A stretch of DNA of 41,891 bases from Longimicrobium sp. (GTDB lineage: Bacteria; Gemmatimonadota; Gemmatimonadetes; Longimicrobiales; Longimicrobiaceae): NCBI GenBank assembly GCA_036389795.1, contig DASVWD010000164.1, positions 1-41,891 of the forward strand, given 5' to 3'. Made by a program: the position numbers and the translations under genes. The first letter of the stretch is position 1; each line of letters opens with the position of its first letter. Below are positions 30,809 through 34,816 of this stretch, piece after piece. Under the pieces are notes generated by a model, which did no database searches, was not told where the DNA came from, and saw nothing but the letters and a program-made list of their open reading frames with translations.

Positions 30809-31693
30809 TCACCCCTCCCGCCGCAGCCGGAGCAGCCCCTCCTGTGCGGTGGAGGCCACCAGCGCGCCATCGCGGGTGAAGATGGAGCCGCGGGTGAAGC
30901 CGCGCGCGCCGGCCGCGGTGGGGCTGTCGGTGGTGTAGAGGAGCCAGTCGTCCACGCGGAAGGGGCGATGCAGCCACACGGCGTGGTCCAGGCTGGCGGC
31001 CTGCACGTCGCGCCGCAGGAACGACAGACCGTGCGGCAGCAGCGCCGTCCCCAGCAGCCCGTAGTCCGACGCGTACGCCAGCACCGCCTGGTGCAGGATC
31101 GGGTCGTCGGGCATGGCGCCCTCGGCGCGGAACCACATGTGCTTGAGCGGCTCCCGCCGGTCCGGCGCGAAGGGGTTCACCGGGTCCACGGGGCGGAAGT
31201 CGATCGGCCGGTCCTGCGTGTACACGCCCCGCAGCGGCTCGGGGATGCGCTCGGCCATCGCGCGCACCAGGTCCAGCTCGCGCGGCACCGCCTCCGGCGG
31301 CGGCACCTCGGGCATCGGCGCGGAGTGCCCGATGCCTTCCTCGCCGACGTGGAACGAGCAGAGCATGCTGAAGATCTCCCGCCCCTGCTGGATCGCCAGC
31401 ACGCGCCGCGTGGTGAAGCTCTTCCCGTCGCGGATGCGGTCGACCTGGTAGAGCACCGGCGTGTCCAGGTCGCCGGGGAGCATGAAGTAGCCGTGCAGCG
31501 AGTGCGCGGTGCGCCCCTCCACCGTCTGCCCCGCCGCCACCAGCCCCTGCGCCAGCACCTGCCCGCCGAACACCCGCCCCGAGCCGATGTCGCGGTTCTG
31601 GCCGCGGAACAGGTTCAGCTCCAGCCGCTCCAGCTCCAGCAGGCGGAGGAGGAGGTCCAGGGGCTGTCCGTCGGGGTCGCCTGTGCCGCTCAT
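30809..31693 (-). CDS. tesB: Acyl-CoA thioesterase II (TesB)
   Basis: Hydrolyses acyl-CoA to fatty acid and CoA; double hot-dog fold. 294 residues: LFRGQNRDIGSGRVFGGQVLAQGL and AHSLHGYFMLPGD in the first hot-dog, and SLDHAVWLHRPFRVDDWLLY, then GFTRGSIFTRDGALVASTAQEGLLR in the second, with the Asp/Thr/Gln triad region (DHA, SPTAAGARG, AQEG). ATG at 31693 precedes SGTGDPDGQPLD. A strong hairpin lies 73 bases upstream. Confidence 0.93.
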   Translation of the reverse strand: MSGTGDPDGQPLDLLLRLLELERLELNLFRGQNRDIGSGRVFGGQVLAQGLVAAGQTVEGRTAHSLHGYFMLPGDLDTPVLYQVDRIRDGKSFTTRRVLAIQQGREIFSMLCSFHVGEEGIGHSAPMPEVPPPEAVPRELDLVRAMAERIPEPLRGVYTQDRPIDFRPVDPVNPFAPDRREPLKHMWFRAEGAMPDDPILHQAVLAYASDYGLLGTALLPHGLSFLRRDVQAASLDHAVWLHRPFRVDDWLLYTTDSPTAAGARGFTRGSIFTRDGALVASTAQEGLLRLRREG

Positions 31694-31765
31694 GCTGGCT
31701 CGTGGTTGCGGGAAAGACCGGCGGCTGCGCGCGCCAATCTCTCCTCGCCGCCCGCCGAGCACAAC

Positions 31766-31798
31766 CAGGGCTCGCGGGAAGAACTCCCGCGAGCCCTG
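31766..31798. terminator. Perfect hairpin between serpin and tesB
   Basis: A 14-bp perfect stem CAGGGCTCGCGGGA/TCCCGCGAGCCCTG with a 5-base loop. On the minus strand it follows the serpin gene by 88 bases and is trailed by GTTGTG; a probable terminator for the serpin. Confidence 0.65.
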
Positions 31799-31828
31799 AA
31801 AGCACCTCTCTCTGCCTTCGTCATGTCC

Positions 31829-31882
31829 ACCTTCTCCCAGACTTGGGAGAGGGTTGCCGCTCTAAGGCGGCGGGTGAGGGCT
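31829..31882. repeat. CCTTCTCCCA/TGGGAGAGGG palindromic element
   Basis: ACCTTCTCCCAGACTTGGGA, GAGGGTTGCCGCTCTAAGGC, GGCGGGTGAGGG. It abuts the serpin stop codon (31886) as the copy at 20207-20262 abuts the tsaD stop. Confidence 0.75.
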
Positions 31883-31885
31883 CCG

Positions 31886-33124
31886 TCAGTCGCCGAGCTT
31901 CGCGATCTTGCCGATGAAGAGGATGGTGCCCGAGAAGCGCTCCCGGATCGCGAAGACGAAGGGACGGTCGGCGCGGAACGACGGCGGGACGGACACGAGA
32001 CCCACGTTGACGCTGGTGACGGCCGCGGCCTCGGTGCCCTCCTCGTTCACCTCCACGAAGCTCTTCTGCAGCACCTCGCTGACGTAAACGCCGCCCGCGG
32101 GGGAGAGCGCCGTGAAGTCGGCGGCGTCGGTGAACGCCAGCGGCATCCCCAGCGCCTTCAGCGCGTCGTTGAGGGTCTTCTCGTACGTCACCCGGAAGCG
32201 CGGGAGGAAGACGCTCATCTCCGTCTCCTGCACCCCGTCGAGCGCCGCGGTGATCTCCTGCCACCGCGCGGCGTCCAGCGAGCCCACCAGCGCGTCGACG
32301 CCGTGCCCCTCGCGGGGAAGGACCACGGTCATCACGAACGCGCCGTTGCCGTAGGGGAGGTCCACCGCCTGGTACTCGGGTCTCCAGACGTGGCGGTAGT
32401 TCCCGCCGCGGACCATCAGCGGCACGGTGCGGTCCACGCCGTCGGCGCCGTGGAAGGGCGCCTGCGTGGTCTGCGCCGGGTCGAACGCGGCGCGCCAGCT
32501 TCCCTTGAAGTAGAGCGCGTTGACCAGGAACATGATGTCGTCGCCGTCGATCTTCTCGACGATCTTGTCGATGCGGCCGCTGGTGGCCTGGCTCGCCCAC
32601 CGGTTGATCGAGTCCACCGCGGCCGGCGAGCCGAAGTCCAGGCCGGCGGCCTTCGCGCCGAAGTACGTCCGGCAGGTCTCCAGGAACGACGTCTCGAACG
32701 GGAACTCCCGCCGGTACCACACCGAGTTGGCCAGGCGCACGTCCACGCCGCGGTCGAGCCCCAGCAGGAGCTCGATGAGGCTCCGGTAGCTCCCGTTCAC
32801 GTCGGCCATCGCCAGCGAGCCGAAGCCGAGGGTGGCGCGCATCTCGTCCAGCGTCTGGCCGCGGGCGCCGTTCATGGTCATCCCCAGCGCCATGGAGGCG
32901 CTGAGCGGGGAGATGAAGACGTTCTCCGCGCCCTGCCCGCCCACCTGGCGGAAGAGGCCGAGCGCGAACTGGTTGCCGGCCCCCACCAGCGCCCGCTCGG
33001 CGTCGGTCAGCGGGCGCGGCAGCTCGGTCAGGGTGCCGGGGTCGGACGGGGAGCCCTCGCACGCGGCCAGGAGGGCGGCGGCGGCGAGGCCGGTGAGCGT
33101 GCTGCGCACGAGTGCACGTCCCAT
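31886..33124 (-). CDS. Lipoprotein serpin (serine protease inhibitor)
   Basis: 412 residues. A lipoprotein signal peptide with lipobox LLAAC (C22) is followed by a complete serpin fold: NQFALGLFRQV, NVFISPLSASMALGMTMNGA, FLVNALYFKGSWRAAF, LPRFRV, and the C-terminal RPFVFAIRERFSGTILFIGKI. The reactive loop EEGTEAAAVTSVNVGLVSVP has a proper hinge (G363-T-E-A-A-A) and aligns without gaps to alpha-1-antitrypsin, placing P1 at V377 and P1' at S378. This suggests inhibition of elastase-like proteases, probably on the outer face of the envelope. GGAGAAG precedes the ATG at 33124. Confidence 0.94.
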   Translation of the reverse strand: MGRALVRSTLTGLAAAALLAACEGSPSDPGTLTELPRPLTDAERALVGAGNQFALGLFRQVGGQGAENVFISPLSASMALGMTMNGARGQTLDEMRATLGFGSLAMADVNGSYRSLIELLLGLDRGVDVRLANSVWYRREFPFETSFLETCRTYFGAKAAGLDFGSPAAVDSINRWASQATSGRIDKIVEKIDGDDIMFLVNALYFKGSWRAAFDPAQTTQAPFHGADGVDRTVPLMVRGGNYRHVWRPEYQAVDLPYGNGAFVMTVVLPREGHGVDALVGSLDAARWQEITAALDGVQETEMSVFLPRFRVTYEKTLNDALKALGMPLAFTDAADFTALSPAGGVYVSEVLQKSFVEVNEEGTEAAAVTSVNVGLVSVPPSFRADRPFVFAIRERFSGTILFIGKIAKLGD

Positions 33125-33388
33125 GAGCGGCTTCTCCGTATTGCAGTGGTGGGCTGAAACGGTGGGTGTTCGTTTCTCGCCGGTGAAACGTCCATCCCCC
33201 GCCCGGAGTGACACCCTCACGCGATGGAGCATCTCCCCACTCCCACCGTCTCGCCGACGATTCCCCTGCTACGCGGAGGCGGCGGCCGGACGCGCCGGTC
33301 TTCCACCTCGAACGGATCGAGCTGGAGGGAGAGATGACAACCTCGAAGAAGGTCCTGCAAAGATCTTTCCGGATCTCCGAACGACGAA
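33125..33388. other. Upstream region of the serpin gene
   Basis: About 260 bases, no gene. It should contain the serpin promoter on the minus strand, but no convincing boxes were found. Confidence 0.35.
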
Positions 33389-33451: not shown

Positions 33452-34816
33452 CTACATCTCCATCTGCCCCATGCCCCGCATGGACTCCCCGACGGGCTTG
33501 AGCCGGACGAAGACGGTCAGCCCGGCCGGCGTCCTCGACCCGTAGGCCGGCTCGAGCGCTCCGGGGAGCAGGTTGATCGAGCCGCGCACGCCCGCGCCCA
33601 GCGTGGCCTTCGGCAGCCGCACCAGCTCCCGCACGTAGCCCAGCGCCACGGAGCCCACCGTGAAGGCGCGCTCCTCCGGGAAGCCTTCCAGGACCAGGTC
33701 CTCCGCGGTCTTGCGGACGACCTCGGCGCGGCCGAAGAACGCGTTGCGGCGGTCCGGCTCCAGGTTGCTCTCCAGCAGCAGGCTGGGGGCGAAGCCGCCT
33801 CCGTGGTGCCGGTTCGCCCCGAAGACCAGGGCGCTCGACCAGTTGCCCCGCTTCCCGAGCGCCCGGCCGTGGAGGACGGAGGCCGTCGCCCGCTGCATGT
33901 CCTCTTCCGGCTCGTGCGCCTCGGGGCTCCGGATCCAGGCGTACGAGGCGCTCAGGCTCCACGCGGACGACGGGTTGAAGGTGAGCCGGGCGGCGCGGGA
34001 GTCGAGCGCGCGGAGCTCGACGTCGGTGCGGTCCTCGTCCGGCTCGCGCCCGTTGAACAGCGAGCCCTCCACCTTCAGCCGCCGCGTGAAGAGCCCCGCC
34101 GTCACCACCCCGAAGGTGATGTGCGTGGCGTCCTGCCAGTGGTGGCCGATCGGCGGGATCGGGTCGTTCTGGGCCGACGGGCGGTGCATGAAGGCCACGG
34201 GGCTGGCCGCCGGCTCGCCCGAGGGCGCCAGGTAGAGCGAGAGGCCCAGGTCGCGCGTGAGCTCGCGCTCGAAGAGGACGCCCAGCTCCATGAAGAGGTC
34301 GTGCGGGTGCTGCCGGTCGTGGATCGGCTCGCCCCGGAAGGTCTCGCCGGACTGCAGCAGGAGCGGGTAGCCGCGCCCCGAGACGGTCCACGGCTCCAGC
34401 GTGAGCATGGTGCGCAGCTGCAGGCGGCCGCGCGGCAGGTTGCGCGTGGCCATCAGCATCGCCCAGTTGATGCTCCCCAGCTGGTCGTCGCCGCGCGCGC
34501 CGTACTGCCGCTGGTACTGGCCGAACGCCACGCCGTGCACCATCACCGACCACTCCCCCGCCCGGAAGCGCACGAAGGGCATGATCGACTCGTCGGGGAG
34601 CCAGCTCGTCCCCGAGCCCATGCGGTCCACCGGGATCCCCAGCGGCCCCGTCATCTCCGCCATCATCCGCGCGTGCTCCCCGGCGCTCATCCCCATCGCC
34701 GCGCGGGCGCGCGCGGTGTCGGGGCGCGCGGGCGGGTGCTCGTGCTGCGCGCGGAGGGCCGGGGCCAGCAGCAGGGCCGGCAGCAGGAAGGCGTACAGGA
34801 CGGCTCTACGAATCAC
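33452..34816 (-). CDS. Outer-membrane beta-barrel protein, Met/His-rich ends
   Basis: 454 residues. A signal peptide (AVLYAFLLPALLLAPALRAQ) is followed by a His/Met-rich start (HEHPPARP, MGMSAGEHARMMAEMTG), then a long series of alternating beta strands typical of an outer-membrane barrel (SVMVHGVAFGQYQRQYG, RLQLRTMLTLEPW, HDLFMELGVLFERELTR, HITFGVVTAGL, WSLSASYAWIRSP). It ends GMGQMEM. The Met/His clusters resemble those of copper- or silver-handling proteins, but no metal function is proven. GTG start only 6 bases after the ychF stop, so it is probably cotranscribed with ychF; the terminator after it closes the unit. Confidence 0.8.
   Translation of the reverse strand: MIRRAVLYAFLLPALLLAPALRAQHEHPPARPDTARARAAMGMSAGEHARMMAEMTGPLGIPVDRMGSGTSWLPDESIMPFVRFRAGEWSVMVHGVAFGQYQRQYGARGDDQLGSINWAMLMATRNLPRGRLQLRTMLTLEPWTVSGRGYPLLLQSGETFRGEPIHDRQHPHDLFMELGVLFERELTRDLGLSLYLAPSGEPAASPVAFMHRPSAQNDPIPPIGHHWQDATHITFGVVTAGLFTRRLKVEGSLFNGREPDEDRTDVELRALDSRAARLTFNPSSAWSLSASYAWIRSPEAHEPEEDMQRATASVLHGRALGKRGNWSSALVFGANRHHGGGFAPSLLLESNLEPDRRNAFFGRAEVVRKTAEDLVLEGFPEERAFTVGSVALGYVRELVRLPKATLGAGVRGSINLLPGALEPAYGSRTPAGLTVFVRLKPVGESMRGMGQMEM

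Follow-up and report, generated by a model that had tools for sequence, protein, structure and literature searches.

Bacterial serpins have been sorted in a 2021 phylogeny, which describes a membrane-anchored class among the prokaryotic members, most with N-terminal transport peptides, and calls the role of prokaryotic serpins enigmatic (PMC8233489). The same phylogeny groups the siropins, tengpin and the serpin of Bifidobacterium longum with miropin in Group T (PMC8233489). Each of these three reportedly inhibits neutrophil elastase (PMC6718151), and elastase and proteinase 3 were found to cut the siropins at P3-P2 and P6-P5 (PMC5127057). Miropin itself, from Tannerella forsythia, is listed in reviews as an inhibitor of elastase, cathepsin G, trypsin, subtilisin and gingipain (PMC6718151, PMC8201313), and it has been described as probably surface-exposed (PMC4604654).

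Here we describe a serpin gene found in a 41,891-nucleotide stretch of Longimicrobium sp. DNA (the window), and compare it with serpins from the same phylum and beyond. Among the papers listed in literature searches for serpins of Gemmatimonadota, Longimicrobium or predatory bacteria, none was on such a serpin. An initial annotation, made from the sequence alone, had called lipid-anchored bacterial serpins little studied, which is fair, although the membrane-anchored prokaryotic class already appears in the 2021 phylogeny (PMC8233489).

The serpin gene, its leader and its surroundings

The gene is an intact open reading frame starting with ATG at 33124, and GGAG lies upstream of it (Table 1). 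Its product matched the Pfam family PF00079 (Serpin) over residues 50-408 with an E-value of 1.9e-104 and 350 bits, against a cut-off of 27 in the Pfam profile search. The match covered positions 3-368 of the 370 in the profile, i.e. the whole domain by which members of the superfamily are recognized in sequence. A search of NCBIfam assigned no family to the protein. The initial identification of a serpin was thus correct; the gene encodes a new serpin of a known family and is, as a gene, ordinary.

Table 1. Features of the serpin gene and its product, in coordinates of the window.
Feature	Position	Strand	Basis
Serpin gene, 412 aa plus stop	31886..33124	minus	Open reading frame and translation
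Likely ribosome-binding site GGAG, 9 nt before ATG	33134..33137	minus	Read from the sequence
Lipoprotein-type signal peptide, residues 1-21	33062..33124	minus	Translation, lipobox rule, family shuffle control
Cys22, predicted lipidated residue	33059..33061	minus	Lipobox LAAC; Lgt, LspA and LolA homologues in the genome
Linker, residues 23-49	32978..33058	minus	Cys-to-core distance
Serpin domain, residues 50-408	31901..32977	minus	Pfam match, structure model
Reactive loop P17-P1, residues 361-377	31994..32044	minus	Translation, alignment
Codons of P1 Val377 and P1' Ser378	31991..31996	minus	Sequence, loop alignment, miropin fragments

Relatives were collected from the genome itself, from 30 loci of a phylum search (ranked by Pfam score) and from 80 loci of named genomes (ordered by similarity to the query). 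The 131 matched frames were reduced to 130 by a length cut, to 125 distinct sequences, and to 124 with a readable hinge after one (L037) was dropped; since they were partly picked by likeness to the query, these 124 are not a random draw. A follow-up set consisted of 40 phylum serpins from lower in the list, roughly one per genus and chosen blind to their loops, and when six duplicates of the first set were removed 34 distinct serpins were left.

The leader of the query, MGRALVRSTLTGLAAAALLAAC, starts with charge and continues through a hydrophobic stretch to the lipobox LAAC, which ends in Cys22. It was scored as canonical by a rule-based lipobox test (not SignalP), in which a PROSITE-like lipobox was combined with a hydrophobic stretch, a positive charge and a start codon, and it thereby has the n-region, core and Cys typical of a lipoprotein. 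The lipidation pathway is represented in the genome by three matches to Lgt, three to LspA and one to LolA. The leader is a shared trait: among the 125 distinct relatives 75 leaders were canonical, 34 were looser (Cys followed the hydrophobic stretch, but the residue at -1 or -3 was unusual), 13 sequences had none and three were too short to tell. Under a slightly simpler rule, 79 of 120 observed N-termini were canonical, compared with a mean of 1.8 and a maximum of 6 after shuffling. The follow-up set gave 28 canonical leaders, 3 looser ones and 3 sequences with none. The distance from Cys to core is 28 in the query, which is also the commonest value in the relatives (52 of 109), and five cyanobacterial relatives have no such leader Cys.

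From the leader, Cys22 is probably lipidated. Whereas the lipid-anchor part of the initial annotation agrees with the lipoprotein-type leader, its placement of the protein on the surface found no support: surface exposure is not readable from the sequence, and the protein could equally well face the periplasm. The Lol rule that holds for lipoproteins in general makes the outer membrane its likely place, and we know of no surface-export signal for lipoproteins of this phylum.

The serpin gene is flanked by tesB (30809-31762) on one side, and on the other by the gene of a further protein (33452-34816) followed by ychF. In two genomes of the same genus, G311 and G379, ychF and tesB lie close together with no serpin between them, and four serpin loci of the family had no tested neighbour in common with the window. 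Membership in a conserved operon was therefore rejected, and the serpin is accessory and often moved or lost. Contamination of the assembly as the source of the window is unlikely, as both ychF (92% and 89%) and tesB (82% and 81%) find their matches in the same two relatives. The 33452-34816 gene (minus strand) encodes 454 residues with an export-type leader and without a Pfam match, and tblastn gave no match to it across the region that holds ychF and tesB in G311 and G379.

Of 395 genomes sampled from the phylum, 180 contained a serpin, as did 6 of the 15 family genomes and 2 of the 8 genus genomes listed. Across 85 serpin loci, no neighbour family recurred across phyla except the serpin itself and frames overlapping it; other recurrence was genus-level synteny, mainly in Pontibacter. 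The idea of a guard gene with a protease partner was rejected, as no protease recurred as a neighbour in these loci.

Two elements lie downstream of the gene. Directly after the serpin stop is an interspersed intergenic repeat of about 67 bases (31819-31885, minus strand) with at least 40 further matches in the genome at 79-95% identity (40 of 187 candidates scored), and 12 other aligned copies show two hairpin-like parts. Between the serpin and tesB, positions 31766-31798 form a perfect 14-base-pair G+C-rich hairpin without the T run of a standard terminator.

The reactive loop and its bond in relatives

The reactive loop of the query reads EEGTEAAAVTSVNVGLV up to the predicted bond and SVPPSFRADRPF after it. 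The inhibitory hinge claimed by the initial annotation is present as EEGTEAAAV at residues 361-369, in line with the P17-P9 consensus ExGTEAAAx with small residues. Val at P9 is also found in miropin and in 61 of 124 relatives, and P17, P15 and P11 are identical in all 124. From Glu361 at P17 to P1 there are 16 residues, as in alpha-1-antitrypsin, and the two loops align without gaps (letters confirmed against 1qlp), placing P1 at Val377 and P1' at Ser378 with the codons GTG TCC (31996-31991). The register and coordinates given earlier thus hold, with outside support from the subtilisin cut of miropin and from a conservation valley at P1/P1', and the proposed Val-Ser bond is right as far as computation goes.

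An AlphaFold2 model built with 62 sequences had a pLDDT of 90.5, with residues 363-376 (P15-P2) as a strand, and its best Foldseek match was subtilisin-cleaved miropin (5ncu; rmsd 1.1 Å, TMt 0.96), so that the predicted model has a serpin fold. The best PDB matches were cleaved miropins (rmsd 1.1-1.2 Å), whereas native miropin came at rank 33 with an rmsd of 19.4 Å, showing the model to be in the loop-inserted state. Such a model agrees with an inhibitory loop of suitable length, but a training set with cleaved serpins may explain it.

Miropin was also the best solved relative by sequence (5ncs, E 5e-80), and its fragments bear on the register. In subtilisin-cleaved miropin (5ncu) the C-terminal fragment begins SSPST, and the cut thus falls after the Thr aligned with Val377. 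In trypsin-cleaved miropin (5nct) the fragment begins TSSPST, i.e. the cut follows the Lys at P2, and in a mutant with Lys at P3 (5ncw) the trypsin cut was shifted one residue further. A microbial serine protease therefore uses the aligned bond, and the loop tolerates cutting at neighbouring bonds.

The P1 residue in the 124 relatives was Thr in 75, Ser in 22, Val in 10, Gly in 9, Lys, Asp and Ala in 2 each, and Leu and Glu in 1 each, and P1' was Ser in 85. The pairs Thr-Ser (70) and Val-Ser (10) make up 80 of the 124. In 21 more relatives Ser stands one residue before P1', and in 5 it occupies P1' after another P1; Ser is thus found at P1' or one earlier in 106 relatives and is absent from both places in 18. 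The follow-up set behaved similarly, with Thr/Val-Ser in 25 of 34 and a Ser at P1' or at the preceding residue in 31. When the 362 alignment columns of the 124 relatives were ranked by entropy, P1 and P1' fell at percentiles 46 and 42, compared with 95 for P3, 88 for P2, 89 for P2' and 91 for P4', and the follow-up serpins likewise had lower entropy at P1 and P1' than at P2 and P2'. Common descent alone would not leave two conserved positions flanked by variable ones within one set of proteins. The P8-P7 pair, which lies in the inserting strand, reads Thr-Ser or Val-Ser in 82 of 124 as well.

On a quick tree for which the loop had been left out of the alignment, nine changes between Thr and Val were counted among the 80 Thr/Val-Ser sequences, and the nearest relative (L013, 60% identity) has Thr at P1, suggesting that Val377 is a recurrent stand-in for Thr. 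The Thr/Val-Ser pair was seen in 23 of 26 sequences from Bacteroidota, 11 of 11 from Cyanobacteriota, 5 of 6 from Ignavibacteriota and 2 of 10 from Zixibacteria, as well as in Gemmatimonadota and in individual genomes from further phyla. L063 (called Deltaproteobacteria) and L049 (Calditrichaceae) have identical leaders and loops, so the phylum assigned to some metagenome bins may be wrong. As judged from these alignments, the Val-Ser bond is not private to the query, and Thr/Val-Ser is common to most relatives; this conserved lipid-anchored family is more interesting than the gene itself. No statement of the conserved bond was found in the literature searched, which included few subscription papers.

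The genome of the query (G000) has a second serpin (contig C141:132893-134002; locus L002, 1462-2862, minus strand). Its core is 37% identical, its leader is canonical, and its longer loop has Asp-Thr at the P1-P1' register; its target is likely different. Serpins also occur in tandem arrays with differing loops, five genes in L043 (1-9197, Zixibacteria SM23_73_2) and four in L054; in the L043 array one copy has Thr-Ser and others have Gly-Pro at the P1-P1' register.

Proposed role and alternative explanations

Building on the family membership, leader, hinge, register and loop-inserted model, we infer that the gene product, a genuine serpin, is probably inhibitory and probably lipidated. Exported by the lipoprotein pathway, it would be tethered through Cys22 and a 27-residue linker to the cell envelope, most likely at the outer membrane. 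A serine protease of broad type (elastase-, subtilisin- or alpha-lytic-like) would attack the loop, usually at Val377-Ser378, upon which the cut loop would insert into sheet A with the protease trapped as an acyl-enzyme. Since the tether would hold the inhibitor at the cell, the envelope would be shielded from proteases that cut at small residues. We give this proposal as a whole a probability of about 0.62. The elastase or alpha-lytic specificity put forward in the initial annotation is compatible with Val at P1, but neither a single bond nor a single protease class can be counted on, because the usual P1 of the family is Thr and relatives are cut at several bonds. The 18 relatives with Ser at neither place and the Asp-Thr of the genome's second serpin also speak against the proposal, as does the lack of a protease partner among the neighbours. 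A specific defence role against hosts or predators, also suggested there, was not supported.

The bond that is cut in the query may itself vary, by analogy with trypsin at P2 of miropin and with the siropins, cut at P3-P2 and P6-P5 (PMC5127057). Taken further, the loop could be used mainly at another bond, e.g. Leu376-Val377 or Val374-Gly375, and the Val-Ser assignment would then be convention only. The siropin cuts speak for this, as does the trypsin fragment of miropin, which starts one residue before the Ser of the Thr-Ser bond. P1 and P1' are, however, conserved in the 124 relatives while P3, P2 and P2' vary, with a similar entropy trend in the 34 follow-up serpins, a pattern that convention by itself would leave unexplained; we regard predominant use of another bond as rather unlikely. 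Far less probable still is a non-inhibitory serpin with a substrate, chaperone or binding role, of the kind suggested for a Streptomyces clade (PMC8233489), given that the hinge letters of the query are of the inhibitory type and nearly invariant in the 124 relatives, and that miropin, with the same hinge, inhibits proteases (PMC6718151, PMC8201313).

The origin of the proteases is a separate matter. HtrA proteases favour P1 residues of the Val, Ala or Thr type, and 22 Peptidase_S8 and 6 trypsin-family matches were counted in the genome. Both are in line with a serpin that protects the cell from proteases of its own, secreted or in the periplasm (subtilases, HtrA-type), and not from foreign ones, and protection from endogenous proteases has been proposed for miropin (PMC6718151, PMC8201313). 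On the other hand, Peptidase_S8 counts were 22, 20, 2, 4, 1 and 28 in six family genomes with a serpin and 12, 21, 22, 24, 9, 21, 7, 8 and 1 in nine without; the corresponding trypsin-family counts were 6, 2, 4, 3, 5 and 3 versus 5, 4, 4, 5, 3, 6, 5, 2 and 3. An effect of endogenous-subtilase dosage was rejected, as Peptidase_S8 number was not associated with serpin presence in this comparison, which is small (6 versus 9 genomes) and counts families, not targets; trypsin-family number showed no visible difference either. Together with the lack of a recurrent protease neighbour in the 85 loci, this makes a role against the cell's own proteases improbable, about as much so as the use of another bond. 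As an observation apart, at least 20 Peptidase_S8 matches per genome were found in G000, G180, G251, G273, G311, G379 and G346, a subtilase expansion that spans most genomes of this genus and one sister genus.

Beyond the shielding proposed for the single protein, it is conceivable, if somewhat doubtful, that lipid-anchored serpins form a widespread envelope-defence family in which Thr/Val-Ser is constant since all members meet one kind of foreign serine protease, tentatively the alpha-lytic, elastase- or subtilisin-like enzymes of competitors and predators. Such a family would take in close to half of the genomes sampled from the phylum and would extend to several other phyla. Animal serpin loops change fast, and a constant bond would be the opposite. 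A lipid-anchored family with a conserved bond leads to a testable prediction, namely one protease class acting at the same bond across phyla, and, if borne out, this would show what purpose serpins serve in environmental bacteria.

Comparison with characterized serpins

Miropin (5ncs, 5nct, 5ncu, 5ncw) has the same hinge as the query, EEGTEAAAVT, and is 36-39% identical to it in structural alignments. In both proteins a small beta-branched P1 is followed by Ser, and the query model superposes on cleaved miropin. Unlike the query, miropin has Lys at P2 and a loop that is four residues longer on the P' side, and its source is a bacterium of the human mouth. The siropins, tengpin and the B. longum serpin are bacterial inhibitory serpins, as the query is predicted to be, but the bonds cut in the siropins differ from its predicted P1-P1' bond. 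Chloropin (PMC10090351) resembles the query in being an exported bacterial serpin with the same hinge consensus, and differs in its Arg-Ser bond, in its targets thrombin and KLK7, and in being described as secreted and not lipid-anchored. Conserpin (5cdx) and alpha-1-antitrypsin are sequence relatives of the query, both without a lipid anchor, and alpha-1-antitrypsin shares its hinge-to-P1 length but has a Met-Ser bond.
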